NCBI GenBank assembly: GCA_029204225.1
Contig: CM055098.1
Location: 9,279,746-9,343,745 of the forward strand
Origin: Diphasiastrum complanatum
Lineage: Eukaryota; Streptophyta; Lycopodiopsida; Lycopodiales; Lycopodiaceae
Length of the DNA stretch: 64,000 bases
Reading direction: 5' to 3'
Shown here: positions 8,408-63,021 of the stretch, one piece after another
Layout: the number at the start of each line of letters is the position of its first letter
Numbering within the stretch: position 1 is the first letter of the stretch
Translations under genes and position numbers: made by a program
The notes under the pieces: model-generated
Told to the model about the DNA's origin: nothing
Databases searched by the model: none
Seen by the model: the letters and a program-made list of their open reading frames with translations, nothing else

Positions 8408-9603
8408 TTAACAACATTCAGGGCCTTGGACTCCTTTCAAACTAAAATTTCTTGATGAGATTGAAGGATGGTTTGCTTGTTTATCCACTTTTAAAGATAT
8501 TATGTGCACGCTCCAATGTTTGCTGCCAACAAGCAATGAATGACTAGAATCTATAAGAGTCTCCAAAAAACAAATCTTACAAAAAGAAATGATCTTACTT
8601 TGCACAATATGGAATGATGAATATTGATGCCTCCTTGCTTGTGTGCCTGAAGGCTTTCTTCTCTTTATGCAACAGATGTCCAAAAATTGGAGATACAACA
8701 CAAATCTCCTTGGTGACTGTATATGTGTATTTATGTACATAATATACACACTCGGCTTCAACGACTATATCTGAGATATATATGGGAGGTCTTCTCCTTT
8801 AGCTCCTTATAATGCTGGTCTTTGATATGCATTTTAAAATTAATATCATCTATACAAAACAAAAACTCTCCTTCGAGATCATCTATTTTTTTGGCTGTGT
8901 ACATATCAAAATCAATGTATCTTTTAGAATCAAGGAATTTGTTCTTTGAATCATTGGGGAGTCTGATATACAATCATGTCCACCACTGTATTTAGATCCT
9001 CTGCATGTTGAGAAGGAGAACTTGCGATTTAAAGATTAGGGATTACGGGAGGGCTCTCAACCCATATTATTGCTGAGGTAGTTGCCACATCTCTTTTAAT
9101 GGGAGGAGGCGAGGGTGAAGAGATGGGAGACATAGGCTTGGGTTTTGCCCGCTTGGGCTATGCTTGCTTTCTCTCTTTTTGGGGTGGGACCCCTTTCAAG
9201 AGGAACTTGCCTCTATGTGAAGCCCGACTTAAAAATGTTGTCATAGGTGTTCCGAAGCCTCATGACACAAAGCATGTCTTTGGGCATCAACATCACCCTC
9301 TTGGCATGTATAACACCCTCTAGAAGTCCTTGTATGCAGTATGGAGTGCCCCCAAAGCAGTGATATTCCACCTCACTACATAGGGCAAATGAGTAGTCAT
9401 ATCCTGCGTGACCTAGGCCTCACAACTCGATAGAAAGCTACTTTCAAGATTAGAAGCTTGGTGCTCCTTTGTAACACCCTAATGTCCCTCAACCATGGAC
9501 GACGAGGTCTTCCGCATCTTTGCGGAAGAACGGGTTCAATCTGTAGACGGCGAGATGGTTCAACAAAGGTAGTCATTCTAGCAGTTTGCTTCATCCGAGC
9601 CAT
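8408..9603 (-). pseudogene. Histone H3-like domain fused to Ulp1-type protease, copy A (broken)
   Basis: The start MARMKQTARMTTF is strikingly close to the H3 tail start ARTKQTAR. Next comes the H3 alphaN/alpha1 region (LRDIRVLQRSTKLLILKVAF). A frameshift near 9400 moves the alpha2 region (RWNITALGALHTAYKDF) to another frame. A small deletion then removes the FEDxxLC loop, and VIHAKRVMLMPKDM follows. A linker starting FKSGFT continues into a block (FLDSKRYIDFDMY, about 8973-8758) shared with the outer copy. A C48 protease His motif (KHWSVHIISLK) sits near 8500. The Asp and Cys parts are missing or unreadable. Alignment with the copies at 22.8 and 30.1 kb supports one gene. It is clearly non-functional. 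Confidence 0.8.
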
Positions 9604-10360: not shown

Positions 10361-11300
10361 TTGAGTTTAAACGTGTGGTCCATTGTGACCAGCACCACCA
10401 ATCATGTTGCTTTGTGTAGGAGGGCTTGGATTTTGTTTTTTTATCTCTCTGCTCTTGTTCTTGAAGAGACAAGAACTTCGAGGTTAAGGATTGAGGTTGC
10501 CTCATCATCCGCTGATTCTGTGATATCAGAATCAACTATTGTTGATGAAGTCTTGGGTGCTAACGAAGAGGCAAGATTGGCAGCAATGTACGACCTAGCC
10601 CAGTCTCGTGCATTGTCCATTTCATCCTTATCTGATTTGGTCCATGGATCCAAATGACAAAAGCAAGACTATTCTCGATTTGCCAGTGTATCACATGGAT
10701 AGTGTCACATACATCTCCTTGAATGATATTATAGATGTTCTTGATCTGAGGGAGGATGAAATATTATCAATTATATCTAATTTCATCATAGAATTCTTGG
10801 ACTTTATAGATCTCGAGGATGATGATCTATGTGCTTCTATCGATTACAAAGACGGAGACAATACTGAAGCCCTACAGTCAATCATGTCTGAAAGCAGGGC
10901 ATACCTATCCCATTATTTGAAGAGCTTTGTAAATAAAAATATTTGTATTCATCATAGTAAATTTTCTTTGGATGTTGTAACAATAATAATGGCAATTAAA
11001 GCATCATGACATTTCTCGAACAAACATAAATATCCTCAGAATACATATAAAATTATTTTTGCAAAGAGAGACATTGTTATAAAAGTATTTGGCTATGTAG
11101 TTGAGAAAGTTCCTAAAAGGTCATCCTCTTTAGCTGTTTTCTCTAGATACATAGACTTGAGCAAAAGAAGATCTATTGATTTTCTAGATCCATATGATAG
11201 AATTTTTTTTTTCATGACCACACAACAAAGCCGATCATTAAAGATAAAGAGAAAAAATGATTTTGTCGTGCACTGTACTTGAAATGATGCCATATAATAC
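10361..11300 (+). pseudogene. Transposon ORF2, unknown acidic protein, copy A (broken)
   Basis: The frame from 10361 (FYLSALVLEETR, TIVDEVLGANEEARLAAMYD) and the overlapping frame 10608-11009 (ILDLPVYHMDSV, FLDFIDLEDDDLCASIDY) match the outer-copy ORF2 at 21971-20440 segment by segment. The end (HYLKSFVNKNICIHHSKF, then IIMAIKA and, shifted, IIFAKRDIV) matches its last exon. I recognise no known domain. Conserved traits are a central acidic cluster (LEDDD) and a basic, hydrophobic C-terminal block. Frameshifts break it. The N-terminal third seen in the other copies is not visible here. Confidence 0.65.
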
Positions 11301-17421: not shown

Positions 17422-17475
17422 CATTAGAGGAGTTACAAACATCAAAAGGGCCGTCTAAGAAATGCCACATAGGAC
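17422..17475 (+). repeat. Left terminal inverted repeat, outer transposon
   Basis: The start CATTAGAGGAGTTACAAACA, then ATCAAAAGGGCC, matches the inner left end at 24454. It also matches the reverse complements of the right ends at 33777 and 35853. The two left ends share a further block (AATGCCA and TAGGA) that the right ends lack. Confidence 0.85.
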
Positions 17476-17736
17476 AAAAAAAAACGTCAAATTTTAAAAC
17501 TCTGACAGACTTTCAGATCCATTTTAGCTTACCTTACTCGTAATGTGTAGTTAACATGACACGATTATGATGCATGCGACTACAACTTCAAGAACCTATG
17601 ACGCTCATTAACTAACTTTTTCAAATTTGAAAATGAGATTGTGTCCCTCGTTTTAACTAGCGAGAGAATAAACATAGAATCTCAGGTATGCCATGGATGA
17701 AGAATATTGTCTATTTTCTTTTTGGTCTGTCAGCTG

Positions 17737-20358
17737 ATGTTTACGGAGATGTCTCAGTTTCATCTACACATTGTTCTCCCTGTCGAGAATGCTCCAATAG
17801 CTAAAAGAGGAGTAGTGAAAGAATCCACAGTTTCTCCACTTGATATGATCACTCACAGAATCAACCAAAGAAAGAATTATGATTTGTGGATTGATGGAAG
17901 TTTGTATCCATTAGATCCGAGCTCGATGCAAGCTCCACAATTTCAATCCATCACACAATTAGTAAAGTTTTTGTGTGACGGAGAAAATGGTTTACTGGGT
18001 TATTGTGAAAGATTGACGACTTATGGTGTTGCAAACTTGCTAAAGAAAATACAGAGTTTAGAATGTATGTTAAATGGTTTGCTTGCTGACTATAGAGAAA
18101 AAGAGACCGCATTATTACAAACAAAAGAAGATAATGCACATTTACATAATATTATGTTAAATTTGAATGCAAGTAGTGATCAATTCTGAGAAGTTGTTCA
18201 GACATTATGTATATCAAATGACCAGTTAAAAGAAGAAACTCGCATACTAGATAAGAAATTAAAAAGAAACAAGCGAAAAGAATTCTGAAAGACATTGATG
18301 AGCTTTCACTAAATGGAGGCCAACGGAGAAAAAATATTCAAGCATTTAAGTAAGGATTTGATTTGAATAAGTTTTATTTTAGTTTTGTGAAGTAGCATGA
18401 CATTTATTATGTGTCCTATTTGGGTTTCTTGATTTTCATAATCATTTGCAGATCAGCATTGGTTGCAAATGAGCATCTGAAGGACAATGACCTGATCGAA
18501 AAATCACTGAGTTCGGTATTGACAACCAAGTCCACAAAGTCTTTATTGGACAATAATCGATATTCTCGAATCAAGTCCAAGGTCACTGAGGCTTTGATGA
18601 ACGAGGTCGGTAAGGTTATCGACTGTACGTTAATTCAGGGAGCATGTGATTTCTCAAGTATTAGCAGGGAGGCATATGCCAGTATATTTAAAATTATTAA
18701 AGAGGCTTTTGGACAAAATTTCCCATTCCTCGCCCTTTTTAGATAAGATTGGAGAGAGATGTATTGAATAAGGGTATGCAAAATGTCATTGGAATCCCTT
18801 TTCACATCAATGAGATTTACAATTCAAAGTCTGGCAATTTGTCATATAATTCTACCAACAACATATTTGTGGATTTGAATCATTTATTGAGATTTATAGT
18901 GAAATTCTATAATTTTACAAGTGTTAGTATGAGCAAACTTATTCTGGTGGTCAAGCTAGATGAATCGGAAGTTATAAAAGGACAAAAGTTGGAAAGAGTA
19001 AGTATTACTCTCATGAATGGAGCATTGAGCAATGCAACAAACTCAAGGGATCTCAACTTCAGTGTGCAATCAGAAAACAACATATGGTGGCTAGCATGTT
19101 TTCAGGTAAAAAATGGCTGTTATTCATGTGCAATTTTTTTTGGTGATTGTTTTGAATGCATAAAAACTTGTTATTCCATATGTTGAACAGGTTATCAAGG
19201 AGGATCACGATGTTCTTTCCTAGATTTTTAGCAGAACAAGTTATCCAGATATCATAAAGGATCATATGATGGCAAAGTACTTTGTGTTCCTGAAAGAGGT
19301 GAATGTATGGTGGAATGGCACTTAGCTGGAGACTTGAAGTCATTGAAATGTATGTTCAATGTATCTCATGGAGCAAATTTGAAACATCCATGTCTATATT
19401 GTATGAAATTATCAAATGACATTTCAAGGAACACAAAGAGATATTGAAGATCCTAACTGGAAACCAGTACTACCAATCCCTTTACAAAATGTGCATATTT
19501 GCACACTTCATGGAGAGGTGAGGATCATAGAGAAATTAATATATCTTCATATCTTGTTTGCATGGAATACTAAGCCAGAGTCAGCATCAAAACAAGCAAT
19601 CGCTCGATTAGAGGAAGTGTTGTCAAAAGCAGGCCTTCATAAAGGCCATGTTAAAATACAAAAAGATGAAAAGCTTTCGGGAAAAACAGGAAACGTACCC
19701 AATAAACCTAGCATAGGAGGAGTCAAAGCTTGTCAATTTTTATCAAATCATTCTAAAGAGTCGTCTAAGATCCAATACTCAGTTTGGAAAGATGTTATTT
19801 CTGCAACAGAAGACTTTGAAGATAAAGGAACAACAAGGGTAAAGAAGGTTGAAGTATGAAAAAAGCTCGATAATATGATTGAAGTGCTTAGAAAAGACAC
19901 AATTTCATATGCAGATGCACTCCTATTGGAGAAAACAACAATAGAGTTTGTAGATGCAGTTCGGGTGGCTTGGGGCTCAGATTACATCACCCACTACATG
20001 GTAAGATACATTTGAACAGTGTCTTACAATTTCATAATTTTAGTATAACTTGCTTGATAGATTCTAACCAATGCATAAATCTTTGATATTGCAGCACATA
20101 CTAAGGCATCATGCATCATTTTTTGCAAAAAAGTATGGCAGTTTGAGTTTGTGGTCCTCACAAGGAATGGAGAAATCACATTGGCAGGCAAGAGCAGCAT
20201 TTCATCGAAATACACAACATGGTGGAACATCCTCAAAAAATAGTTACATCATTCAGCTATTCCAATGGTTTTATAGACGAGTTCAAGTTCGATACACAAC
20301 AAGATCAACTGAATATCAAAGATGCAAAAAAGCATGTAAATTTATAAGCCAAAATTAG
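17737..20358 (+). pseudogene. DDE-like transposase with introns, outer copy (broken)
   Basis: Exon 1 (about 17737-18340) encodes FHLHIVLP, DLWIDGSLYPLDP and a coiled-coil-like stretch (LLGYCERLTTYGV). It is broken by TGA at 18187 and 18286. Exon 2, after an acceptor near 18451, gives SALVANEHLKDND and DFSSISREAYASIFK, then a frameshift near 18720, then NNIFVDLNHLLRFIVKFY, the first acidic motif LDESEVIKGQ, and a donor after WWLACFQ at about 19105. Exon 3 has an early TAG, then in shifted frames HLAGDLKSLKCMFNVSHGA and HPCLYCMK, then PNWKPVLPIPLQNVHICTLH and LSGKTGNVPNKPSIGG. Exon 4 (from about 20095) has LSLWSSQGMEKSHWQARAAF. The acidic residues in KLDES, AGDLK and QGMEK are the likely DDE triad. 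This is inference from conservation. Confidence 0.8.
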
Positions 20359-20439
20359 ATTGATGGCATTCAATAAAGATTAAACGCATGTGATCAAAAA
20401 TTCTCAAATTTCACATACATTAACTGGAAAATAGTACAA

Positions 20440-21971
20440 TCATTTTTTTTCATCGTCTCTAAGGACAATTTTTGCTGTGTGGTCATGAAGGAACTTTTTC
20501 CTATCATATGGATCCAAAAATCGAGTGGATCGCCTTTTGCTCAGATCTATATATCCTGATAGAATTGCCAGAGTAGATGATCTCATAGGAACATTTTTTG
20601 GCACGTAATTGAACACTTTAAGAGCAACATCTCTTTTGACAAAAATGATTCTATATGTATTTTTTGGATATTTATGCCCTTGGGCAAAATAAGATAGGGC
20701 CTTGATGGCCATGATTAAGGTTCTTGCATTCACAAAAAACCTTTCATGAAGAATACAAATTTCATTATTTACAAAATGTTTCAAATAATGAGCCAATGAG
20801 GCATCCTTTTGTCTCCCGCCTTGTCTCTCTCTCAATCCTCCATGCCTGCTAGCAAAGGCATCAACTTCAACGATATCTTACAACACATAATCAAGTGTTA
20901 GTCAAACTAACAGATCAATCATCAATTACACGTTAAATAGTAAATGATTTTGTGAGAAGGTGTACTTACCAAATCTTCCTCGTCAGCTTGGATCATAGTA
21001 GTAGCTTCTAGATTGTGACCAGCAATAATGGTGAATTGCTGGCCAGCTGGAATAGTATATATGAGAGGTGGCGGATACTTTTTCTGAAAAGCCAAAAACT
21101 CCTCCTCACTTAGCATATTAGCCTCATATGTCCTGCTCTCAGATAGCATCCTTTGAAGGGCATCTGTGCCACTTGCCCATTCTACCTAGTCCTCATAGTC
21201 GATACCATCTATGAGGTCGTCATCATCAAAGTCAATAAAATCATTAAATTCAGAAATCATTCTTGACATAAGAGATAATATCGCATCTTCTTTGAGATCC
21301 ATTACGTCTCCGATGTCGCTAATGGACAAGAATGCAATATCGTCCATATGGTACACAGGGAGGTCCATCAGGGTTCTACTCTGGTCAATCTCGTTCACGG
21401 TAGATAAGGGAGAGATAGACAAAGAACGAGCCTTGGCAGGATCATATTGTTGTGCTTGTCTGGCCTCCTCTACATCTCCTAAAACCTCATCAGTAATGGA
21501 AACCTCTGAAGCCACACGAGTGGTAGGGGCAGACAAACCAATCATGGACAACCCAGAAGATTCTGCCTTGTTAGGGATAAGAGCAGATAAGAAAAACATG
21601 AAGGCCATACCCTCCTGAGCGAAGCGACATACTCGATTGTGTTCCTCACAGGGTATGACACGTTTAAACAGATCAATAAGTTTGGTAAACTTACGATCAT
21701 GCCTTTGTTTGGCACTAGGCTGAGCATGAGTCAAATCTGTGAAATGCACAAATCTCAGGCCGTCCATCAGAAGGGTACCTTGTTGCAAGCACTCATAAAA
21801 ATCCTTGTATAGTTTAGGAAAAACTTCCCTGTGCTCAATAACAAATCTCTCTATGTCAGACTGCAAATCGAAATAGGACAAAAAATGGGCCTGTTTGTCG
21901 CTAACCTCAGCATCAACAAGGAAAGAACTAAGAGCTCTATAATAGGTCAAACTAACAGAAGAGGAGGCCAT
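20440..21971 (-). pseudogene. Transposon ORF2, unknown acidic protein, outer copy (nearly intact)
   Basis: The start is MASSSVSLTYYRALSSF at 21971. The first 261 codons are open and include FTDLTHAQPSAKQRHDRKF, EEHNRVCRFAQEGMAF and the acidic end FDDDDLIDGIDYED. One in-frame TAG follows (about 21186-21188). The frame then reopens (QRMLSESRTYEANMLSEEEF) to a donor after IQADEEDL near 20970. A last exon to 20440 gives DASLAHYLKHFVNNEICIL and LIMAIKALSYFAQGHKYPKN. It ends with DDEKK and a stop. I recognise no family. It diverges from the H3-Ulp1 gene across an 845-bp promoter. It is the best-preserved gene of the outer copy and a good source for remote-homology searching. Confidence 0.75.
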
Positions 21972-22816
21972 ATCGATATGAGGCGCCGGTTACCAAGGGG
22001 ACATAAACGGTGTGATCGTGGGCGCATGATGGCGATATGCACTGTGCACAATTCTGAATATCAGAACCACACGCCAGGGAAGTAGTGCAACTATGGAACT
22101 GTCTATTTGGCGCGTGGTAGCGATATTGTATGTACTGATTTTGGAGCATGTCGGTTTCCTGGACTCAATATGCGAAACTGAATTCCGAAAACGACACTCA
22201 TATATATAGTCTAATACAGAGCATCTGAATCGTATACGTGTTTCTATAACATGCGATCAAAATTGCCACATGTGTGAAAACGACGGCCAAATCATTTGCA
22301 TGACATGTGTACACTTTGGATCTTGACCCATGTCCTTGCACGTGCATGCCAACTGTACGATCGTACGAGCCAGTCATCCCATGACGTGTGTGTGGCCCAG
22401 ATATTGACACGTGTCCTCGCACGTGCATGCCAACCGTATGATCGTACGAACCGCTGATGTCTTGACACGTGAAAGCTCCGTGTGATGACACGTGTGACCA
22501 CACGTGTGGGGAGTGGAGGTGGTCACATCACACGTGTGAATATGATGGGACGTTCTACATGTATAAAAGGATCTTTTCGACTCATATTTTGGTTTTGGAT
22601 TTCTTCGTTCCCTAGCTCTCCTCAGCTTTCTCCGTTCACTTCTGCTTTGCTATACGCATGTCGCTACCATGCACCGAGAGACTCACATACGAACACAGCT
22701 TCCCCCTCCGTGTGTCGTGGAGATACGCCATCTGCCATATCGCCATCATGCGCCTCCCCTGTTGGATATGCACTTTTCTTTCTCATTGGCGTGTCATATT
22801 GATACCTTAGCTTGAA
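21972..22816. promoter_or_regulatory. Divergent promoter of outer copy: ACACGTGT array between mirrored ATATCGC motifs
   Basis: The region lies between ORF2 (-) and H3-Ulp1 (+). At about 22320-22545 it holds repeated ACACGTG(T) palindromes (such as GACACGTGT, CACACGTGTG). A perfect 19-bp inverted repeat GGCGCATGATGGCGATATG (22021-22039) and its complement (22736-22754) flank them, each beside one start codon. A related pair (GGCGCGTGGTAGCGATAT near 22111; ATGTCGCTACCATGC near 22657) is similarly mirrored. A TATAAAAGG box is at about 22562. The layout suggests a two-sided promoter for the two genes. Confidence 0.65.
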
Positions 22817-24453
22817 ATGGCCCATACCAAGCAAACATCATGCCTTACCACATTTTCCCAGCCTCCTCGCCCTCTTGTACAAAGGGTAGTGGGCATTGGT
22901 AGGAGAGTAGGTCGGCCCATAAGACCATGGTTAAGGGATATCAGAAAACTTCAGAGGACAACAAATCTTCTGATTCCCCTTGCTCCTTTCTACAGGTTTG
23001 TGAGATTAGTGACAAGGTCAATCTCACATGATGTTCGTTGGAACATAACAGCCCTGGAAGCCCTCCATACTGCCTATGAAGACTTTCAAGTCAAATTCTT
23101 TGAGGACTCCACGCTTTGCACAGTGCACGCTAAGAGAGTTACCCTCATGCCTCAGGACATGCATCTTGTCATGAGGCTGAGGAGTACATACGATCAGGTC
23201 TTTAAGAGTGGCTTCACCTCTAGGCCACCACCTATAGAGAGAGGGCCTGTTCCTCAACGATGAAGGAGAAAGTAGACCAAGCCCACCAGGCCTGCTAGGC
23301 AAAGGGTGGTACTCAGCGAATCACCATCTTCCCCTCACATCTCTCGTCCTTTGGTTGGACCATCACACCATTCTGTAGTGCGTTCTTCTCCTTCCACCAC
23401 CCCTATCTATTCAAGTAGTTCCTCTTCCATTCCCTCCATTCCATCCCACAATAACGAAGATATAACCTCTACTGTAGATAAAATAATATCGGATCTAGAT
23501 ATAAGTTTAATAGGTGATTTTTATAAGGATCTTTGTGTAAGATTTCTTGTTGATCCCAAAGATTCATTTTTGGATTCTGAGAGGTATATGGTTTTTGATG
23601 AGTATGTTGTCAAAGAGATTGATAAGCTAGGAGGTCAATTTTCTTTTTGTCTAAGCTCAATTAATTATGTAAATTACATAAATAAAGACTTATGTGATGT
23701 CGTAAAGGAGAAGACAGCAGATATATCAGATCCAGTTGTGGAGGCTGGTTTGATGTATTTTGTAAATAGATGTAAATGCGATGATACTAAGGACATTGGA
23801 GTTGTGCTATCCTTTTTTGCACACAGCCTTCATAGTCCAACTAAGGCGACGAAGTATCTTCTCCATACAACCTCGGAGACCAAAGTCTTTATTATTCCAT
23901 ACTGTCAGAAGTAAGTGATTACATAGAATATATTCAAGTAATATTTTTAATAGGTATTGTAATTCCTTTAGTTTAACTAATTATCTCTTGTTTGTAGTAA
24001 GCATTGGAGTATGCATATAGTCTCCCTTAGGGAAGATTTAGATGAGATCATTAATCCCATCTATTTAAAGATGGATTCCTTGAAGTCTACCCATGCTGAA
24101 ATGGACGTGATGTACGGCAGAATGTTGCCATTTTTGCCAAGGCTGGATGGGGCCACTATAAATAGCCACCTGGAGATTGTTGATGTAGAAGTAAGTATTT
24201 CTCATCAAGTATCTGATAGGTAATTTGTTTTTCTCAGAGTGCACAACTAACCTATTATATGTTTTGTGATTAAAGTCAGCTCAGCAAGATGATGGACATA
24301 GCTATGAATGGTTTTCCATCCGCAATGTACAGGACTTCTTAGAGTGGTACATCATGCAATCCGGGGCTCCAGATATATGAAAGATAAATAGACTAGTGAA
24401 TGGCCTAACTAAGTTATTTTCGATTTGGTTTTTGATAAGTCAATCGACTCGGT
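22817..24453 (+). pseudogene. Histone H3-like domain fused to Ulp1/C48 protease, outer copy (split by inner transposon)
   Basis: The start MAHTKQTSCLTTF resembles the H3 tail (ARTKQTAR). The fold follows in H3 order: LRDIRKLQRTTNLLIPLAPF (39-58), RWNITALEALHTAYEDF, FFEDSTLCTVHAKRVTLMPQ and a C-terminal LVMRLRSTYD. The tail is about ten residues shorter than in H3 and lacks ARKS motifs. Loop 1 has canonical H3 length, unlike the usual CENH3. Two stops in the linker (23261-23263 and about 23276) interrupt an otherwise continuous frame into the second domain. That domain has introns with donors at 23911 and 24191 and acceptors at about 23997 and 24275. It carries the protease motifs NKHWSMHIVSL (His), YLKMDSL (Asp) and SAQQDDGHSYEWF, where the catalytic Cys is replaced by Tyr. 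The inner transposon interrupts the next intron; the last exon is at about 33795-33963. Confidence 0.85.
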
Positions 24454-24510
24454 CATTAGAGGAATTCTCAATATCAAAAAGACCCTTTAAGGAATGCCAT
24501 GTAGGATATA
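24454..24510 (+). repeat. Left terminal inverted repeat, inner transposon
   Basis: CATTAGAGGAATTCTCAATA followed by TCAAAAAGACCCTTTAAGG. It pairs with the right end at 33777 and shares an AATGCCATGTAGGA extension with the outer left end. Confidence 0.9.
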
Positions 24511-24979
24511 CAAAAATATCAAAATAAATAAAACAATATTGTTTATTTGCTTGCCCACACCACTCCCAAGGCCTCCCCAACTCCCAATGATATAACCACA
24601 GTGTCTATAGTCACAGTTAAGAACTGTTAACAGTTCGCAGTATAACTTGACTAAACTCAAAAATATTCCCTCCATTGGTTACAAAAAGGGCAATATTTTC
24701 ACTGGATCTAGAATATGACCGCCATCCCCAAATTCGAATCAGGAAAAATTGCAAAATGTCTACATATGCATTCCTTCCACGAGAATGGAAATATAAGCGC
24801 CAACTACCTATTGAAATGAAAAAATGAGCGGCATTTTTAAATTTGAATCAAGCATACAAGCATGGAGATTGGATTGATCGTACATAGTATATAATATAAT
24901 CAAAGATGAGTATTTTGTTTTGCTTCATAGAATCTGGTCATAGTACTTTGATGCAACTGATTACTCTATTATTTTTTTT
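24511..24979. other. 5' non-coding region of inner transposon
   Basis: AT-rich sequence lies between the left TIR and the transposase start. No gene is seen. A promoter for the transposase is expected here but no specific element could be pinned down. Confidence 0.4.
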
Positions 24980-24982
24980 ATG

Positions 24983-27630
24983 ATGACATTATATCATCTA
25001 CATGTGGATATCCCTGTTGATTTGGCACCTTTGTAGAGAAGAGGAGGCAAAGGAGTTCAAATATTTGCTGAAGATCGTTCTCGTTACAGGGCAGAAGGAA
25101 AGAAAAATGTGGATTTGTGGACAGATGGAACATTATATCCACAAGATCCAAGCACTTTGACACATCCCACATTCTCTTCAATAACTCATTTAGTTACATG
25201 GATATGCAAAGGGCATAGTGGATTACTAGGATATTGTGAAAGATTGCAAAACCATGGAAAACAACTTTATATGAATAAAGTTCACTTTTTAGAAGGTGAG
25301 TTAATTCGGATATCCTCTTATTGTCAGAATAGAGATTGTCATCTCCAAAAGACGTTAGAAGAAAATGAAAACTTAAAAAAAATAATGAATCATTACAGAA
25401 GATAGCAATCAATATCAAATCAGAACTAGAGCAAATGCAATCAGTCTTACAGTCTATTCGTATTGAAAACTTACAATTACTGAAGGATGTGGATTTGGTG
25501 AAGAAGAAGGCTGAAAGTAAGAAGCGAAAGCAACAAAGTTGCAAGGATATTCAAACGCTTTCAAAAGGAGGTTATCGAAATAGAAGGATCTGTGCATTCA
25601 AGTAAGCATATTCTAAATTTTGTAAGTTTTTCAATGACATTTGGATTTAATTTCAGCTATGGTGATATTCTGTCAACTATCTGTTTTTTTTGCAGATCTG
25701 CATTAGTAGCTCCTTGGAATATTAAAGACAATGCTTCACTAGGAATGTCATTGGGCACAACATTGACTTGCAAATCCACTGAGCGTCTCATGATGAACAA
25801 TAGAATTTCAAATGTAAAGTGTAAAATAGCAGAGTCTTTGATGGTGGACATTCAAAATATTTTAGATAAGACTATAGTTCAGAGTGCTTGTGATTTTGCA
25901 GGTATTAGTAGGGAAGCATATGCAAAAATATTTAAACTAATTAGAGAAGCTTTTAAGCAAGTTCAAATTAGAAAAGTCCCAATCCCTAGGACATATCACT
26001 TGAAGAAAGAGAGGGACACATTAAACATAGGTATGCATAAGAACACTGGAACTCCATTTCATATTGAGGAGGTGTATGAAACTGATGGAAGATCGATATT
26101 CTATAATTCATCAAACAATTTATTTGTTGATCTAAATTACTTGCTGAGATACATCGTTACATTCTATGATATAACCTATGGAAAGGTGAATGGCAAAATA
26201 ATCGTAGTACTTAAGTTAGATGAGTCAAAAATTTGAAAGGGCAGAAGATGGAAAGGGTTGGTATAGCTCTCATGAATGGTGCTCTATCCCAAACAGAGAA
26301 CCAAGAAGATTTCAAATTCAGTGTCTAGTCAGAAAATGATATATGGTGGTTGGCAGCGTTTCAAGTAACTAGCCTCATTATTACATTACATTCTTTGAAT
26401 AGTATTAATACATTGTAAACTAAGTATGATTAATTCTTTGGACAGGTGCTAAAAGAGAATCATGATATATTATCATGGATATTCTCAAGGACATCTTATT
26501 CTAGGATCATCAAGGACCATATGGATGGAGGACTTCTCAATGTTCCAGGAGTTGGAGACTTCAATGTTGAATGGCACTTAGCAGGTGATTTAAAAACATT
26601 GAAATGTATGTATAATGTCTCTCACGGTGCTACATCAAAACACCCTTGTTTGTACTGCATGAAAATGGCAAAAGATGTAACTAGGAGTACATGAATTACT
26701 AGAGAATATGCAGATCCAAACTGGAAGCCTGTGCTGCCTATCCCCTTAAAAAATGTGCATGTTTGCACTCTTCATACAAAAGTTAGACTAATAGAAAAGA
26801 TCATTTATCTTCATATAGTTTTTGCTTGGAATACTAAGCCAGCATTATTAGCAAAGGAAGCTATCTCTCTATTAGAAGATGTTTTATCAAAAGCAGGACT
26901 CTATAAAGGACATGTCAAAATTCAAAAAGATGAAAAGCTTTCAGGAAAGAATGGGAACATGCCAACTAAGCCAAGCATAGGAGGAGCAAAAGCACGTCAT
27001 TTTCTATCAAATCATACTGGTAAGCCTTCTAATATTCAACACTCAATCTGGACAGATATTATTGCTGCCACTCAGGACTTCGAGAAAGATGGCAAAACCA
27101 GAGTACTAAAAGTTGATGTATGGAAAAAGCTTGATAGTATGATTGCTATTTTAAGAGAAGAAAAATACTCTGATATTGATAAGAAAGCTGTCCAAAGGAC
27201 TTGTGTCGAGTTTGTTAATGCAATATCAAAAGCATGGGGAGAAGATCACATCACTCATTACATGGTTAGTATAAAATTTTCAAAATGCTTTCAAATTTTC
27301 ATATATATTTAGATCCAAACATAAGACTAACATTATGATTTTGACATATGCAGCACATACTAAGAGATCATACAACATTTTTTACAAATACATATGGAAG
27401 CTTGAGTGTATGGTCATCACAAGGGATGGAGAAGTCACATTGGCAAGCACGAGCAGCATTTCATCAAAATACACACATGGAGGAACCAATGAAAAATGAA
27501 ACTACATTTGTCAATTGTTTCAGTGGTTCTACCGCAGAGTTCAGATTCGACATATAACAAAGTCCACACAATACAACAAGTTTAGAAAAGCATGCAATTC
27601 ATACAGGAAGAGAAAATTAGATGATTGTTG
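24983..27630 (+). pseudogene. DDE-like transposase with introns, inner copy (broken)
   Basis: Exon 1 runs from about 24983 (MTLYHLHVDIPVDLAPL) to about 25602, with VDLWTDGTLYPQDPSTL and LLGYCERLQNHGKQLYMNK, then a Lys-rich coiled coil. It has a TAG near 25034 and a frameshift in an A-run near 25380. Exon 2 (about 25697-26364) has SALVAPWNIKDN, DFAGISREAYAKIFKLIREA, LFVDLNYLLRYIVTFYD and the acidic motif VLKLDES. A one-base frameshift near 26233 and a TAG near 26324 follow. Exon 3 (about 26447-27264) has VEWHLAGDLKTLKCMYNVSH, HPCLYCMK (a CxxC zinc-type motif), a TGA at 26692, then PNWKPVLPIPLKNVHVCTLH. Exon 4 (from 27354) has LSVWSSQGMEKSHWQARAAF and then a frameshift. The DDE assignment (LDES, GDLK, QGMEK) rests on conservation. 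Similar GD-x-K and P-C-x2-C blocks occur in several eukaryotic cut-and-paste transposase groups. Confidence 0.8.
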
Positions 27631-27757
27631 AGTAGAAGATCATCATTCCTGAGTAGAAGATCATCATGACATGTTCAGAATTGCTTTGCAAATTCATTGA
27701 ACAAGAGAGGAGCAATACCCAATGTAAATGTATTGACTGTATTATACAAAGTGTCAA

Positions 27758-29268
27758 CTATTCATCATCAGATCTTGTATCAGATTCTATGGTAGTATTG
27801 CCATGAAGAAATTCTCTGCTAGCGTATGCATCTAATAGATGTGCATTATCCTTATTTCCACTAAGCTCAATATAAGTGGAATACAATGAATAATGGGAGC
27901 TCCTTAAAGGAACATTCCCATCAGTAAAGCCTAAAATGTTCAAAACATAAGATCTTTTGACAAAAATGATCTTATTTGTCTTAACAAATTTATGTCCTCC
28001 TAGATAAAATGATAAAGCTTTAACTGCCATTATAAGACTCTCCCCAATTGGGCTCAGCTTAGAATGAGCAATACAGATTTCACTCTTCAAGAAATGTCGA
28101 AGATAGTGGCCCAGTCCACTGTCCCTCTGGAACGAGGATGCGTGTTGTCTGAAACCACCTCGTCTCGCAGCAAAATCATCTATTATGAGAGCATCTTGCA
28201 ATAGGAAATATGTTAGCAAAAACACATTCAGTGATTGAAAACATTCAAATGCAAGGAAGATTAAACACTTACACATTCTTCATCATCAGCAGCAACCAGA
28301 TCAGGATGATCAATATAATGACCACGTACTGAAGAAAAATCATCAATAAAATGCATTAATGATGGACGAGGGAATCCCATCTGGGATTGAAATGCCGTGA
28401 ATTCTTCATCGGATGGTCTGCGTCGCCCATCCTCAGCTATATTTGATAAAGTCTTATTTAGGCATTCTGCACCGGTCATAAGACTCTCCTCATCATCAAA
28501 ATCAATACCAGCAACAAGGTCATCTGTCTCAAAATCTACAAAGTCGAAGAATTCGAAAATTGTGCCGGATAATAAACATAGAACCTTGTCCTCACGATAG
28601 TCAAAAAATTTACATAAATTAGCAGTAGTAAACATCATCATTAATATAATATACAGGCAAATTGAAAAGACATTTCGAATCCTCCATAGATTTGGATTCA
28701 TCATCAGATATATTTTGGCCAATGAAAGAATCCCGGAGAACATCAGTATTTAAATCAATGAAGTCACTTTCTTTATCCAGATGTCGATAAGAAAGTGACT
28801 GATATCCTTAATAGCTGACTGAATAGAGGAGGGTGCAAAAGGAGGGTCAGCAACAGGAACTTCATCATCATCTGGGATCTGAACTAAAAGAAAAAGTACG
28901 AAACCACTCTGATACTCAACCAATCGACATTTCTTGTTGCAATACGGACACATAGAACTACTTTTGAAAAGATCAAACAATTTGGTGAACATTCTATCCA
29001 GTCTATGTCTAAAAGCTGGGAAGAAATGAACAAGATCAGTATAATGCATGTACTGGAGTTGACCTATGGAGAAAACAGGCTTGCTAAGTATATCTCTGAA
29101 TCTGACATAATGTTCATAAATTACGTCAGAATTTGGTTGTGCAGTTCTGAAAATATGTAGATATCGCCTGAATAGGCTGTGGAAGTAGTCCAGATTTTCA
29201 ATAATCCCAAATTCACTCAGAAATGAACTCAAGCCTGATTCTTGTGAGGATGATGAGGAAGAGGCCAT
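27758..29268 (-). pseudogene. Transposon ORF2, unknown acidic protein, inner copy (broken)
   Basis: The start is MASSSSSSQESGLSSFLSEF at 29268, parallel to MASSSVSLTYYRALSSF in the outer copy. FRHRLDRMFTKLFDLF, CPYCNKKCRLVEYQSGF (a possible CxxC pair) and VLFLLVQIPDDDE follow. After a frameshift near 28790 comes LFNLPVYYIND, then FEFFDFVDFETDDLVAGIDF and a donor near 28270. The last exon (about 28200-27758) gives LGHYLRHFLKSEICIAHSK and IIFVKRSYVLNILGF. Its order, introns and acidic centre match the outer ORF2. Function is unknown. The conserved C-terminal block (LIMAVKALSFYLGGHKFVKT) would be the best search seed. Confidence 0.7.
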
Positions 29269-30097
29269 GGCAGTAGCGTGAATATCACACTTGTGTGCGC
29301 GGGAGAACTGAACCAAAACAAACTATCAAAATGGCGCAGAAGATGGATATGTACGGTAGACATATATAGAATATCGCACTTGTGCACGAGTAGGTATACT
29401 TGCAAGCAAACGGACAGCAATGAGCGCGCACAAAGGTGATATGTCGCGAATTTTGAGAACGCAAAAGGTAAAAAATTATTCGATTTCCATGCCATTTATA
29501 CTAAATTTTTGCATGTGTGGTCAATGGACTTATGACACGTGTCTACTTTCAATTCGACAATAGGCGCAAGCACGTGTGAGATGACACCTGCACACGTGTG
29601 AAATGACACCTGAACACGTGTCGCATGTTCATTCGATTGCTCATAAACACGAGTCGCGCTCGCATTCGATCGTACAAATCCCACACGTGTAATGTGACAG
29701 GGTGACATGTGTCGCTCGCTCATGTGTCTGTACAACTCCCACACGTGTGACTGGACGTTCTTTCGCACGTGCGAACCTCGATATAAAATCACAAATCTCG
29801 ATGAATTTTTTTCACTTTTTTTTTTCCGCATATCGCATTTGTGCGTGCCCTTCACAATCGAAATTCCTCCTACTGCCTTCCATGTGCATAGGTCCGATAC
29901 GTCTGCCTACATGTCACCCCATATTGCACTTGTGCGCCTTTCCTCAAATCTAATCATTCTCTCTGATATTCGGCTCACATAGGTCTGATATACCGTACAT
30001 TCTGTCCGTACATAGCGGTCCTCTACGAGTTCTTTATCATCCCTTCCTTCTCATTCTAACCTTTACGCACAAGTCTGCTATCACATAGTTCACATCC
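29269..30097. promoter_or_regulatory. Divergent promoter of inner copy: ACACGTGT array and ATATCGC(A/C)-type motifs
   Basis: At about 29535-29770, at least eight ACACGTGT-like palindromes occur (for example GACACGTGT, GCACACGTGTG, AACACGTGTCG, CACACGTGTAA). Flanking them on both sides are ATATCGCACTTGTGC-type motifs near 29283, 29372, 29829 and 29921. The array sits between ORF2 (-) and H3-Ulp1 (+), as in the other two copies. The motif classes are conserved, but positions and exact sequences are not. This suggests function rather than simple descent. Confidence 0.65.
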
Positions 30098-31925
30098 ATG
30101 GATAGGAGAAAGCAGACAAGGAGAGACTTCTTCTCTCCTGGCTCATCCTCATCTCCTGCAGTTGCCATCACACCACCTGCTAGACCTAGAACGTGCAACC
30201 GCAACAGGTGACTCTCTGAGATACGCAAGTATCAGAGGTCAACAGCTCTGTTGATCCCAAGAGCTCCATTCTACTGTGTTGTCCGAAACGTAACAAGAAA
30301 TGATCTCGGACAGCACGTTAGATTCACACAGAGTGCTCTTCAGTGCCTTCAGGAGGCTACTGAAGATTATATTAGTCTTTTTTTTAGGATTTTTTTTTGG
30401 TTGCCATACATACCAAGAGGGTTACCATAATGCCCAAGGATTTTCAGCTTCTAATGAGAATGAGGGATAGGTACTGTAGGTTACATGTATCTCAGCCTGC
30501 TGCTCCTAGACCAACTCCTGTAGATAGGACTCATCTTCCTACGAAGCGTCCTAGGAAGCAGACAGCCCCCAAGCGTGCTCCTAAGAAAGTGAAGCCTATC
30601 CCAGAATCCATTGTAGATAATGCTGCTGTTGATAATGTTGTAAATATAGCTACCTTTGTTTTGGATACTCCTATAATTGCTGTAGATACTACACATCCAC
30701 CTTCTCCTCCTCCTCCCAGTTCCTATACATATATAGATTCAGATGATTATCTTAAATTTGAGAAAGACATATCGAATGCTATAGATACAATTGATACTCC
30801 TTTTTGTTTTAGACTAGAAGAACTTGATTTTAGTATTAATTTTAGAGTTCTAGATTGTCTGGATCTCAAAGACAGACGGGGTTCTATCAGTGATCCTGTG
30901 ATAGAGTCCGGGCTGACACTCTTGCAATTTGACATTGCAAGAGATTCATCAAACGAGTTGCTGGTGCTGAGTAACTTTCTGCTCCAGGCCTTCAAGGAGA
31001 ATAATGACACATTGTCACAGTGTCTGACAAGTGGATTCACACCAGCAACAAAGTATCTGGTCATTTCTTATCATACCAAGTAGGATATATTAAGTGCTTC
31101 TTCCTGTTTTATGCATTAACATTGACATTTTTAATTTAAATAGTTCTCAGAATTGTCGCTAAAGTACTTTTAATCTTATTTTGCAGTGACCACTGGAGTT
31201 TAAACCTGATCTCTATTAAGAGATTTGTAAATAATATTATTAAATGTTCTTGTGTCAAGATGAATTTGGCGAGAAATACGCATAAGGATGTAGATATATT
31301 CATTCCATATCTAAGTAAATATATTCCTACAGACGTTCCCCATTCCGTGGACTGGCAGATCGTCAGCTTGGAGGTAAACTCTGTCTTTCTTAATAACATT
31401 TTGAAATCAATATTCTAATGAGATATTTTCAATCTAATTCGTTCCGTTTCATAATTGATTTCTTGTGTGCTGAATTATTTTGCAGTCACCCCAGCAAAAT
31501 GATTCATTCAACTGTGGGTGGTACACATTGTACAATGCCAACTTGTTTTTTGAGTGGTTCATCCTTCAACAAGATGTTGATATTTCTAAGATAATAGACT
31601 CTGTTTATTCTTATTTTGGAATCATGATTAGTTTTCTATTTTGGTGATGTTATTGGCCATTACTAATACATGAATGTTCTATTTTGCACTTTACACTTCC
31701 TGAGTACACATCAAGCCAAATGTACAGATTTAGACAAGAAATTATCCTGAGTATACTGGCTAGGGCAAGGCTTCAGCCTCCCGTTATTGACTTCATAGAA
31801 AAATATACATTGATATATCAAATGCTGCTCCAGTTTATGAATTTGGGAGCACAAAATACATGTATAGATGCCCAACTTGGGCTTTCATTTATTGAAGGAA
31901 AGGGTGTATACACAGATTTTTACTA
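30098..31925 (+). pseudogene. Histone H3-like domain fused to Ulp1/C48 protease, inner copy (broken)
   Basis: The start is MDRRKQTRRDFF at 30098. After one TGA (about 30209) come LSEIRKYQRSTALLIPRAPF, close to the H3 alphaN/alpha1 sequence, and RFTQSALQCLQEATEDY, matching H3 alpha2. A frameshift in a T-run near 30380 leads to LVAIHTKRVTIMPKDFQLLM, almost the H3 loop2/alpha3. The linker (PTKRPRKQTAPKRAPKKVK) is strongly basic. The protease domain follows in spliced exons: exon end at 31079, exons 31187-31373 and from 31486. It has NDHWSLNLISI (His), VKMNLARNT where the outer copy has KMDSL (catalytic Asp replaced by Asn), and SPQQNDSFNCGWYTLYNA (Gln and Cys retained). The last exon (about 31690-31925) has YRFRQEIILSILARA. 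The acceptor before it reads TTGCAC instead of the outer copy's TTGCAG. Confidence 0.85.
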
Positions 31926-32068
31926 AAGTTTATTTGAAACTATTGTTCTCCCACAATGGTGATTGTTGTAGGTAGATCTTTACAGCACGTTATCAGCTCC
32001 TGTCTTTTTTGCATCTGTGACATGGCAAATATTAGTGAATGTGCAATTGTAAATGATGACATTTTCTA

Positions 32069-33312
32069 TTATTTTGTTCTATTTTGAAATGGCAATAAAC
32101 ATAAAGTACTTACGAGTCTTCCGTTGATGATAAATCTGAAATATGTTGGTAGATTGGTTTGTAATAGCATGAGCTCTGTTATGATAAAATCAAGTTTCCA
32201 GTGCTCTTCCACCTCAACCATAGTCAAATATTTCTCATTGTAGATAATGCTTATCTCCATTCGGTTTGTGTGACCATTTAGTTCAAAGTCTTGATCCAGT
32301 GGTAGCCATGTACCTTCAATTTTCTTGTATCTCTGGTAGCTAAATGTGAGACTGAGCATTTGCTTTTCGATATGATAACGAAAGATCATTGAGGACTTTT
32401 TAATCCTGCATTCTATGTCATTATTTGTTTTACTATCCCAGTCTTGATCCATGAGATCTGACAAAGTCTCATCTGATAAATCCTTGCAAACAAATAAAGT
32501 TGGTGTCCTACAAACACTAGCACTCGAGAAAAAATCAACAAATGTATGCAATGAGATAAACCAACTTAGGTGAACAATTTTTGAGCATGTGCTTATCTTC
32601 ATAGCATTTTTAATATCAATGAGTACCTTGCATCTCAAGGATTCAGAAACAATGCTATCAGGAGTAGGCCACTCATCACTTTGAAAACTAGGCAATGGAA
32701 TTGCTTCGATCTTGCCAAAACCTCCATCTGTTTGTCGCATATATAAAGATTCATAAAAATAGATACCACAATCTGCAAGTTCCTTTGGACTTCTTCCTCT
32801 GTATTGTAGCTTTCCAACATCAGAGTGAATCACGTCTTATATTCTTGCAAGTGATTGTGCGGGATCCCATTCACTTATGCATGATGGATATAAATCTGAA
32901 AGAAAAAAACAATGTTGAAGCATTTAAATCATAATCTGAAGAGCATCAATAAAGGAAATCACCTATGATTGCTATACAGTGCATATGTTTTGATATACTT
33001 ACAATTACATTTTTTATGATCATTAGGATTGATATCATGTACTTTGATTTTTGAATGCATATATACATGTTGCACTAAGACTTCTGATATCGATTGACCT
33101 CCCGAGGTAGTCTTAAACTCCAAAATTTTTGCTTTCCAATAAGATTTGTAAGTCATTTTTGCTCTTTTCTTTTGTCGAAAATTGCCCTTTGATGATGGAT
33201 GCAGCAATACCCATGAGTTCTTCGTATATTTTGTTGTCTTTCAGTTATCAGCTTCATCTTTCTCATTGTAAAGAATCACAGAATCGATTGTAGATCTGGG
33301 TCTCCTCGCCAT
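32069..33312 (-). pseudogene. Transposon ORF4, unknown protein, inner copy
   Basis: Exon 1 starts at 33312 (MARRPRSTIDSVILYNEKDE), has an early frame break near 33242, and then LHPSSKGNFRQKKRAKMTYK and SISEVLVQHVYMHSKIKV. Exon 2 starts after an acceptor at about 32896 (DLYPSCISEWDP), has a TAA near 32840, then a 254-codon open stretch (KLQYRGRSPKELADCGIYFY, HLSWFISLHTFVDFF, RTPTLFVCKDLSDETLSDLM) ending at 32069. It aligns along its whole length with outer ORF4. I recognise no domain. The HPS-x-G-x-FRQKK-x-K segment suggests a basic, possibly nucleic-acid-binding N-terminus. It is convergent with H3-Ulp1. Confidence 0.7.
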
Positions 33313-33737
33313 TGCTATTTTCAAAGCTTGGGCGCCAAAAATCTCTCTGATATGTTACTTAATTTTAATTTTTCGTATCACATTTAATCTAATGTGAATG
33401 CCAACATAGTCACAGTTACTGCGTATACCATATTTTATGTAACTGTACATACTATATTCTATAACTGTAACTAGTATAGTTAGAAAATTTCATTATACTA
33501 ACCAGCATAGTAAAGTAAATTTAACTTGAGATATTGACGTCGGACAAATTAGCACGTGTCGGGCAGGAAGAAGAAACCAATGGGATACGTCCATGCTGCC
33601 TGGACACAAATTTCAAAGTTTTCTATATTGCATTTTTATTTTTTAGTTAATTTGAACTACGTTACGTAGATTTCAAATCTGTGCATTTTGATTGGGCCTG
33701 GTGACGGTCGAAACTAAAGAAAAAAAATAAAAGTATC

Positions 33738-33777
33738 TTTACAAAGGGTATTTTTGATATTGAGAACTCCTCTAATG
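33738..33777 (-). repeat. Right terminal inverted repeat, inner transposon
   Basis: Its reverse complement begins CATTAGAGGAGTTCTCAATA and continues TCAAAAATACCCTTTG, pairing with 24454 onward. Confidence 0.9.
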
Positions 33778-33963
33778 TCTTTTGGATTTGCAGTATAAAT
33801 GTCGATCATTTTCAATGAATGAGATATATGAGTTTCGTCAACAGATGCTGGTGAACTTATTATCTCATGCAACACCCAGTCCAACTATGGAAACGGGAGG
33901 CCAATCAAGTCCACAACTGACACTAGTTCAGGGTGGAGATAATCCATATTACTTTGAGCTGTA
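33778..33963 (+). pseudogene. Last exon of outer-copy H3-Ulp1 gene, cut off by the inner transposon
   Basis: After an intact acceptor (GGATTTGCAG, ending about 33793) the frame YKCRSFSMNEIYEFRQQMLV to LSHATPSPTMETGG matches the inner copy's last exon (SSQMYRFRQEIILSILARAR). It therefore continues the gene that begins at 22817, now separated from it by 9.3 kb of inner transposon. It ends DNPYYFEL and a stop. Confidence 0.8.
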
Positions 33964-34288
33964 AATAATAGATTAAATAGAGATATACATTTTTTATGTA
34001 ATGCCCTATGAATAATTATGGGCATATAGAAAGATAGAGACAATGGGGGAAAAGCATCCATTGTTAAATACAGGACACACATGTACATTCTTAGAAAATG
34101 AGAAATATATTGATATTTAAGAGAGCTTTTACAAATCTTGTATCATAATTGCTCTATTATCTGAACAATTCCACCCAAATCTTTGCATTTGATTTTTTCT
34201 TCATGTCTTTTACGTATCTGCACAAACATACATTAATCAGATTACAGTTAGTGATCTAAATATTGACAAAAAGGATAATAAATACAAA
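33964..34288. other. Non-coding spacer between convergent outer-copy genes
   Basis: AT-rich spacer between the 3' ends of H3-Ulp1 (+) and ORF4 (-). No gene seen; it probably holds both 3' ends. Confidence 0.4.
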
Positions 34289-35507
34289 TTAATATACAAA
34301 TTCATAGATTTCACATACCAATTTTCCATCCAATATAAAGCTGAAATATTCGGAGATATCTTGCTGTAAAAGTGTCAGTTCCGTTCTAATGTAGAATAAG
34401 ATCCAGTCTCGCTCAACCCCAATTGTAGTAAGTAAATCCCCATTTGCCATGATATCAATGCATATACGATCAGTGTGTCCAATGTTGTCTAGATCTTGAT
34501 CTAATGGGGCCCAAGTACCATTGTCTTCTTTCCATCTCCAATAATGAAACACCATACTAAGCATTTGCTTTTCTATACTGTATTTAAATGATATAGATGA
34601 ATGTTTGATTATACAAGAAATATCTGCAGTGGATCTTATATCCCAATCTTTGTCCATGAATTTGAATAAAAAATCATCAGATAGGTTTTTGCAAACAAAC
34701 AACGTGGGAGTTCGATGCACTTCCATGTTTGAAAAAGAGCTGTCAAACAATGACATTGGAACAAACCAGCTTAAGTGCACATTTCTTGATCCAGTACTAG
34801 CTTTGAGTGACTTTTGTACATCATTATATAGCTTGGAACGAAAACATTTTATTATATTGTCATTGACTGCAATCCACCACATGTTATCTTGAAAATTAGG
34901 TAGAGGTATACACTCTAGTTTTCCCATTTCTCCATTTGTGTCTGGAATATACATAGCATCATAAAAAAATATTCCATAATCTGCAAGTTCTTTTGCCATT
35001 CGTCCTCTGTATTGCAATTTGTCAATTTCTGAATGGATGACATCTATAATACCTTAAAGCGATGCCACAGGTTCCCATTCATGTATATTTGAAGGATATA
35101 GATCTGCAATACAAAATCATAATAAGCTCCGATTCATAAAAACGATTACGTTTTAAAAATGACAAGCAATCCAAAAAATTAAGGTATTTACAATTACACT
35201 TTCAAAAATCATGTGGATTTAAAGCCTCCACATTAAGTTCTGAATGCATATAAACATGTTGAATAAGCACCTCTGAAATGGTTTGTCCTCTTGGAGAAAC
35301 TTTGAAATCAATAATCCGCTCTTTCCAATAAGATCTATATGTATACTTGGCCTTTTTCTTTTGGCGAAAAGCCCCTCTCGTCGATGGATGCATCAGTACC
35401 CAAGAAGCCTTATGATATTCACAAGCAATCCATGTGCCATCGTCTTCCCTCTCATTATAAAAAATTGCAGAGCATATCAAGGATCTCAGTCTCCTTCTCA
35501 TCACCAT
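34289..35507 (-). pseudogene. Transposon ORF4, unknown protein, outer copy
   Basis: Exon 1 starts at 35507 (MVMRRRLRSLICSAIFYNER) and is open through LMHPSTRGAFRQKKKAKYTY and QTISEVLIQHVYMHSELNVE. Exon 2 begins at about 35103 (DLYPSNIHEWEP) with a stop near 35055. A 242-codon open stretch then has LQYRGRMAKELADYGIFFYD, NVHLSWFVPMSLFDSSF, RTPTLFVCKNLSDDFLFKFM and ERDWILFYIRTELTLLQQDI. It keeps length and order with inner ORF4 despite clear divergence. That indicates past coding selection. Function is unknown. Confidence 0.7.
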
Positions 35508-35813
35508 AGCTTGAAGAGTTCACGTTTGAACTCATCAATATGAGAGTCCAGAGTATAATAGGCGCCAAACCTATTTGTGAGTCCCAAGATAATTTTAACT
35601 TGAGATTAACCCAAGCAGTTTAGTCAACCAATCATCACGCATGCTAGCCAATAGTATGCTTTCAATCTACCGGACTGGAAATTTAAATTTGCCCAAACAT
35701 GAATTGTGTTTTTCGGGTCAAGCGAGTTATGTTACATAGAAGCCACATAGAAGCCACTATGTCAAGAACCGATTGGGCCACATGGACATAAACAACGAGG
35801 GAAAAAAAAACTT

Positions 35814-35853
35814 GTAACAAACGGCCCTTCTAAGTTTGAGAACTCCTGTAATG
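35814..35853 (-). repeat. Right terminal inverted repeat, outer transposon
   Basis: Its reverse complement begins CATTACAGGAGTTCTCAAAC and continues TTAGAAGGGCCG, pairing with 17422 onward. One base (C for G at position 6) differs from the other three ends. Confidence 0.85.
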
Positions 35854-56480: not shown

Positions 56481-56656
56481 AAACGGGGAAAGATCAACAT
56501 AGTATAACTTAAAGGGAAGGTAGTGATTCTGCTGCTAAAGAAAGATGGACCAGGACCAAAGATAGAGAAGAGATTAGCTGCAGATGGAAGTAATTCATGC
56601 AGGCCTTTTGTGAGACATATCAACAGACATGTTTGCTTCAAAGAGCAGGAACAAGT

Positions 56657-63021
<6,365 letters not shown>

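Follow-up and report, generated by a model that had tools for sequence, protein, structure and literature searches.

Histone H3 domains in a diverse group of TIR transposons of Diphasiastrum complanatum, joined in most families to a predicted C48 protease

Structure of the Locus

The window, i.e., the whole stretch of 64,000 nucleotides analysed here (G000:C7:9279746-9343745, in a searched genome of 1.745 Gb), contains two related TIR transposons, one nested in the other. The outer one, E1 (family A), measures 9,108 bp in total and is split into a left part (17422..24453, +), which starts with the left TIR CATTAGAGGAGTTA and was delimited by alignments of copies and the TIR position, and a right part (33778..35853, +), which ends with the right TIR GAACTCCTGTAATG. 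Copia-like sequence resumes just beyond this end: E1 is itself nested in a copia-like element. The inner element, E2 (family B; 24454..33777, +), is 9,324 bp long with both TIRs, as recognized from the TIR pair and from the unfilled site in other copies, and is inserted in an intron of the H3 gene of E1. Homology between copies extends from about -5.4 kb to +3.7 kb relative to the ATG of the H3 gene. The element ends read CATTAGAGGAG...CTCCT(C/G)TAATG, with CATTAG..CTAATG and CATTAG..GTAATG, i.e., 5'-CA..TG-3' termini. The TIR pattern of E2 has 2,144 matches genome-wide at ≤2 mismatches (reversed control: 0).

The target site of E2 was compared with 16 other loci, in 11 of which both flanks are present and unfilled. 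The flank matches join directly in eight of these 11; in L013, L014 and L016, two to six mismatched bases replace an equal number of flank bases. A duplicated base occurs in none of the 11 unfilled loci, and the target-site duplication (TSD) of E2 is zero bp. E1, compared with one diverged copia copy, also shows zero duplicated bases; the flanks at L017 differ from each other.

Both elements carry the same set of genes. E1 contains an ORF B region (18631..20360, +), ORF A (20440..21971, -), the H3 gene and ORF C (34289..35017, -), and E2 an ORF B region (25037..27623, +), ORF A (27758..29316, -), its own H3-C48 gene (30098..31924, +; ATG at 30098, 3' limit approximate) and ORF C (32069..33241, -). 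This order, ORF B(+), ORF A(-), H3-C48(+), ORF C(-), is that of families A and B. At a locus of family D (L072), relatives of ORF C (E = 4e-24 to ORF C of family A) and ORF A (E = 4e-10) flank the H3 gene, and a weak ORF B end (E = 0.012) comes after the latter, in the corresponding order; an ORF A piece of family A also matches a piece of another family D locus, L039 (E = 4e-13). ORF A and the H3 gene are divergent in the window copies of A, A2 and B and convergent in D (one locus).

The spacer between ORF A and the H3 gene of E1 (21972..22816) holds seven CACGTG sites, an 81-bp tandem repeat and a TATAAAA near 22562. The three ORF A-H3 spacers of the window together have 18 CACGTG in 2,503 bp, compared with eight in the remaining 61,497 bp. 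These arrays, at 9604-10480, 21972-22816 and 29317-30097, lie in three divergent elements, and two of them have tandem repeats. Near the 3' end of ORF B, a 127-bp stretch (20090-20216 in E1, 27349-27475 in E2) is 86% identical between the two elements, more than the other reported shared stretch (77%). Elsewhere in the window, an ORF at 56597-57370 is a candidate for the extracellular part of a LysM-type receptor, judged by what we take to be the pattern of such receptors, and a long GA microsatellite at 61700-62065 reads as an Arg-Glu repeat ORF.

The H3-C48 Gene

The ORF at 22817-23263 (149 codons) matches the histone family PF00125 in a Pfam profile search (E = 4.6e-24, residues 33-122), and the PDB matches shown for it are chains of H3 and H3 variants, the best being H3.Y (E = 2.7e-23, residues 1-123). 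Other copies give comparable PF00125 values: 3.4e-20 for L010 (family A) and 2.3e-25 for L072 (family D). This ORF is, almost certainly, an H3 histone fold inside a DNA transposon. A preliminary description of the sequence had proposed such a domain, with an H3-like tail, and both this identity and its presence in many insertions are borne out. The limits given there are correct as coordinates, but the end is not a natural gene end: the H3-like tail and fold (22817..23260, +) run up to a premature TGA at 23261, followed by a TAG at 23273, and the 149-codon ORF is a nonsense-truncated copy. Beyond these stops, the same frame continues into a linker and protease exon.

In the family A locus L010, four exons with GT-AG introns encode a protein of 518 aa: H3 tail and fold, a basic linker and an Ulp1/C48 protease. 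The spliced protein matches PF02902 with 22.7 bits (gathering cut-off, 20.7; E = 1e-4), L010 being the only copy in which the full C48 region was scanned against Pfam. The sole PDB match of this region (E = 0.42) is an Ulp1-like SUMO protease; the domain is a predicted SUMO protease.

By comparison with L010, the gene of E1 consists of the exon 1 continuation (23261..23910, +, its 3' limit set by L010), with a basic, Ser/Pro linker and the first part of C48; exon 2 (23998..24190, +, from alignment to the L010 splice sites), with the putative catalytic-His stretch HWSMHI; exon 3 (24276..24383, +), which reads QQDDGHSYEW; and exon 4 (33794..33964, +), beyond E2. HWS and Gln..Cys are what we take to be the catalytic motifs of C48 proteases; they appear as HWS and QQDDGHSCGW in family A and as HWS and QQNDSFNCGW in family B, the two families in which the Cys exon was read. 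The window copy has SYEW in place of SCGW and has lost the catalytic Cys. With two nonsense codons, this changed Cys and the split by E2, the E1 copy of the gene is dead.

Besides the copy at 22817, tblastn finds two further H3 copies in the window, at the places (9.6 and 30.1 kb) already given in the preliminary description. Both are broken. The family A2 copy (8604..9603, -) has an H3-like part at 9603->9174 with the tail MARMKQTARMTTF, in three pieces separated by frame breaks and with a stop, then a remnant of the C48 region at 8973->8604. The gene of E2 has a stop at 30209, and its frame breaks near 30386; HWS and QQNDSFNCGW (exon 31486-31590) are retained.

Intact versions of the joined frame exist elsewhere. 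Exon 1 runs from H3 into the basic, Ser/Pro linker and further in L009, L010, L011, L013, L014 and L023, six loci selected for open frames among 16 loci of 9.5-9.9 kb; the linker and first C48 part are stop-free in all six, L023 having a stop in the tail. The C48 region is also found behind H3 in family A2 (the window copy, E = 3e-20), in family B (E = 2e-9 for E2, 6e-12 for L051) and in family C (L052, E = 8e-29), so the association of H3 with a C48 protease, noted earlier for the window, extends to four families. In family D, no C48 region was found in the 5.5 kb of L072 that were read. A family with the H3 gene and without C48 implies that the protease is not essential to the role of the H3 part. 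L072 has a Gln/Pro-rich low-complexity stretch of about 300 residues between H3 tail and fold (L072:1470-2789).

Families and Copy Number

Five families carry H3: A, A2, B, D and, from one copy (L052), C. At ≤3 mismatches, the family motifs match 173 (A), 362 (A2), 304 (B) and 196 (D) places, each with a reversed control of 0; the total of 1,035 includes array fragments and leaves family C outside the count. The best 150 of 6,829 candidates found with the window copy are 70-100% identical to it, and many contain stops. These elements carry H3 as a core gene and not as a stray capture. A host pseudogene present in one insertion, the outcome that would have spoken against the preliminary description, is ruled out by the genome-wide copies in A, A2, B and D. 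The stretch at 22817 encodes the N-terminal H3 part of an H3-Ulp1/C48 protein, whose gene belongs to a set (ORF B, ORF A, H3, ORF C) shared by many and diverse TIR transposons.

The Histone Tail and Selection on the Fold

In total, 42 tails were counted: 20 from A, seven from A2, six from B, one from C, four from D and four from an array of family A2 on C3; these are tails that lie within the retrieved sequence and, for A2, B, C and D, were matched by the tail scan. K4 is present in 41 of them, one B copy having R. K9 is absent in all 42: position 9 is L, I, M, D, E or P. No ARKS context, as at K9 and K27 of H3, occurs in the transposon tails read, in agreement with the earlier reading of a tail that keeps the K4 context and lacks the ARKS sites. 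In family C, the lysine comes one residue later, in ARPKS. The exact sequence MARTKQTAR is found in nine tails (A 3/20, A2 2/7, C3 array 1/4, D 3/4, B 0/6, C 0/1); the window copy starts with MAHTKQTSC. In family A, many of the deviations replace R2 by H or C, or R8 by C or H, the changes that would follow from CpG decay. Copies with an exact ARTKQTAR encode it with different codons: compared by eye, the codons after Met differ at 8/8 positions between L011 (A) and L073 (D), at 7/8 between L011 and L068 (A2) and at 4/8 between L068 and L073. Family D has an in-frame ATG four codons upstream, which could bury the tail.

Among 20 different copies of family A, chosen by protein similarity, which lowers the ratio, dN/dS takes the following values: fold, 0.22; residues 1-13, 0.62; residues 14-36, 1.41; linker, 0.77; and region after the linker, 0.71, this last region being inflated by the alignment of frameshifted rows. 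The corresponding values for the six open A copies are 0.22, 0.57, 1.86, 0.54 and 0.54, and those of pN/pS in the 20 copies with CpG columns masked are 0.21, 0.33, 3.13, 0.84 and 0.90. In the six open copies, the fold has a dN of 0.045, only slightly lower than the 0.052 of the linker and the 0.054 of the protease part, so the low ratio of the fold in family A rests much on its high dS, which is 0.20, compared with 0.06 for some 75 bp of intron 1 and 0.10 for the region behind the fold. Between families, in a run that included repeated loci (L004=L010, L007=L012, L008=L011) and frameshifted rows, dN is 0.25-0.53 in the fold, with saturated dS, and 0.66-0.93 after the linker, with dS >2 or saturated. 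Signs of constraint are seen in the fold and at the K4 end of the tail, while none of the tails read retains K9.

Relation to Host H3 and CENH3

Thirteen intact H3 genes of the canonical type were found in the host genome, 97-99% identical to what we take to be the Arabidopsis H3.1 sequence. Tyr41 is present in all 12 canonical host genes read; the Tyr/Phe41 difference of H3 was first found in ferns, according to the accessible part of PMC5809374. In the fold, the transposon sequences are 39-55% identical to host H3, and families A, B, C and D are 39-66% identical to each other. H113, D123 and R129, presumably the numbering of the H3-H3' contact residues, are kept in the aligned A, B, C and D sequences. 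Most copies carry a change at residue 63 of H3, and family A one at residue 122.

Likeness to plant CENH3 is mixed. Exceptions in single copies apart, a LIPxAPF-like stretch and a Trp preceding the LR(D/E)IR-like motif are common to all five families, and position 84 is W in A, A2 and C; LIPxAPF and W84 are what we take to be plant CENH3 traits. Families A, C and D have a loop 1 of canonical length; in B it is longer by one residue and in A2 by four. Unlike in plant CENH3, the tail is ARTKQTAR-like, as in H3. The preliminary description had concluded from a canonical loop 1 that the domain is not CENH3-like: the loop length holds for family A and fails for A2, the family of the 9.6-kb copy, and the general presence of LIPxAPF-type residues, single copies apart, speaks against the conclusion.

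A tree of the kind suggested there, with plant CENH3, joins A, A2, B and C with a support of 95/93 and all transposon sequences with 56/58. The transposon sequences and plant CENH3 are joined with 61/29, and the CENH3 rows themselves do not form one group. The transposon domain is not placed with CENH3, and these support values are compatible with a single origin or several and with descent from H3 or from CENH3. A search with a presumed Arabidopsis CENH3 sequence did not recover a host CENH3 among the 150 matches listed: the 13 canonical H3 genes came first, and all 14 matches read among the remaining 137 are transposon copies.

Comparison with Known Systems

None of the ORF A, B and C pieces tested matches a Pfam family above the cut-off, transposases included; the ORF B pieces have no PDB match either, one piece has none in NCBIfam, and PHROGs gave nothing useful. 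By eye, ORF B contains KLDE, (A/G)DLK (GDLK in E1), CxxC, HxxxxH and QGMEK, and its E1 copy is a candidate transposase. The Spy/PHIS transposons have no TSD, as here, but the Pfam PHIS DDE transposase has no match in the ORF A, B and C pieces. Fungal TET/JBP transposons and the CMCT transposase clade, as far as described in the accessible part of PMC12730594, offer another comparison: the former carry a chromatin-acting gene as well, and the clade has CA..TG termini and, between the second D and the E of the transposase, C(2)C and H(3-4)H, to which motifs seen by eye in ORF B bear a likeness. However, the TSD of the CMCT clade is 2-5 bp and not zero, and the fungal chromatin gene encodes a demethylating enzyme and not a histone (PMC12730594). 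No transposase profile matches here. We would read ORF B, on these motifs, as a putative CMCT-like transposase, although the zero TSD does not fit the clade.

Among the papers listed in searches of the open PMC literature, H3 inside DNA transposons was met only for fungal hAT elements (PMC6710886, accessible part; PMC3538342, as listed), and neither an H3-C48 fusion nor a plant case was found. The earlier statement that no plant transposon with an H3-fold protein has been described agrees with this, with the qualification that fungi offer a precedent for a DNA transposon that captured H3 (PMC6710886, accessible part); the core gene for an H3 variant in the present elements is unusual. From the same part of PMC6710886, hAT elements of the Dothideomycetes Pyrenophora tritici-repentis and Pseudocercospora fijiensis captured the host H3, with 8-bp TSDs, and the H3 copies of P. 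fijiensis were inactivated by RIP. As here, an H3 sequence was amplified to many copies, in an element of about 9.5 kb. The fungal H3 is the host's own and is not described there as fused, whereas here a deeply divergent lineage is followed by C48 in A, A2, B and C; the elements of this study also differ in their zero TSD, the lack of a hAT transposase match, the loss of K9 and the signs of constraint.

Histones borne by mobile elements are also known from viruses: bracovirus H4 and the H3-like protein of medusavirus, the latter 44% identical to H3, which falls within the range of the transposon families (PMC9145170, accessible part, where no C48 fusion of viral histones is mentioned). A viral origin of the present genes was tried and rejected: scans of viral_contigs with the H3 protein and a 205-aa piece of ORF B found no relative. 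VANC of VANDAL/MuDR is a sequence-specific DNA-binding protein that counters silencing. It is an element-encoded anti-silencing factor, like the one proposed below, but not a histone, and the anti-silencing role here is our inference. A Vandal regulator is mentioned in the accessible part of PMC12730594.

Possible Function

The best explanation of the whole, a core H3-C48 gene whose product is a chromatin-tethered anti-silencing factor, is favoured at somewhat less than even confidence, and its mechanistic half is slightly more tentative still. The roles put forward in the preliminary description are likewise proposals. The H3-like protein would pair with host H4 and become part of nucleosomes in or close to the element, or sit on them. 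The tail could be read or marked at K4 but would be unable to carry H3K9 methylation. The tethered protease may remove SUMO from local silencing factors, and the element would thereby keep its own chromatin open, comparable in purpose to VANC or to the TET/JBP genes of fungal transposons.

A rather unlikely alternative is targeting: the H3-like, perhaps CENH3-derived, domain would guide the transposition complex, or its insertion, to particular chromatin such as centromeres. LIPxAPF, the W84 of A, A2 and C and the long loop 1 of A2 point in this direction, as does the clustering of B-type TIRs. Of these TIRs, counted after GT, there are 67 in all and 60 on large contigs; 28 of the 60 have a neighbour of this kind at a distance of 1 Mb or less (mean for uniform placement, 4.3; 0/1,000 random sets reach 28), and the dense cluster at C1:65-67 Mb holds 27 of the 100 places listed, all 100 on C1. 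Yet, the sites of A, the B-TIRs and the presumed D sites are no closer to each other than in shift controls, in samples of 122 of the 150 H3-search places, 60 of the 67 B-TIRs and 45 presumed D places (small contigs dropped), the D places being assigned by an identity table and not each read; an earlier clustering run had used 114 places from such a table. Family A2 forms a dense array at C3:18.5-21.8 Mb, with 59 of the first 100 exact matches in a list that ends at C8, at megabase scale, in both orientations and with some pairs about 1,861 bp apart. The three pieces read there (L077, L078 and L079) contain four truncated H3-gene fragments that end just past the fold in a repeat context, two with a stop, with a pN/pS of 0.50 among the four; such fragments in a repeat array speak against targeted insertion, as does a tree that does not place the domain with CENH3. 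Targeting to a common centromere is not supported: the families do not share sites.

It is similarly improbable that the H3 fold has no part in host nucleosomes and serves the transposition complex of the element itself, as a module for dimerisation and DNA bending. The conserved fold with its H3-H3' contact residues would suit such an architectural part, and so would the several element proteins of no assigned family and the CACGTG arrays beside the H3 gene. This leaves unexplained the constraint on residues 1-13, seen with CpG masked, and the ARTKQTAR that A, A2 and D encode with different codons. A more doubtful reading is that the tail is a decoy, which titrates host readers or writers of H3 and is not stably incorporated; K4 kept and K9 replaced would fit, like the long low-complexity stretch after the tail in D, but a pure decoy would not need the fold, whose ratio in family A is lower than anywhere else in the protein. 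That the gene merely travels along, being a host H3 that was captured, as in fungal hAT (PMC6710886, accessible part), and does nothing for the element, is very improbable: despite this precedent and the many copies with stops, the divergence of A, B, C and D in the fold, their shared neighbour genes, the constraint on the fold and a tail spelled with changed codons are all at odds with it.

If the anti-silencing reading holds, the finding reaches beyond this locus. It is possible, at somewhat lower confidence than the mechanism itself, that a superfamily of land-plant transposons has long carried its own lineage of H3 among four core genes: nucleosome-competent, with K4 kept and K9 lost in every branch, joined to a SUMO protease in most, and writing silencing-resistant chromatin on itself. 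A parasite would then have evolved a histone variant tuned to the silencing code of its host and would show from the parasite side which residues of the H3 tail decide silencing; it would be the first known case of a transposon that uses a histone variant of its own against silencing. The single protein makes it testable whether loss of K9 together with tethered de-SUMOylation suffices for an active transposon, and the transposon H3 supplies a lineage of H3 that evolves outside the cell's own constraints.
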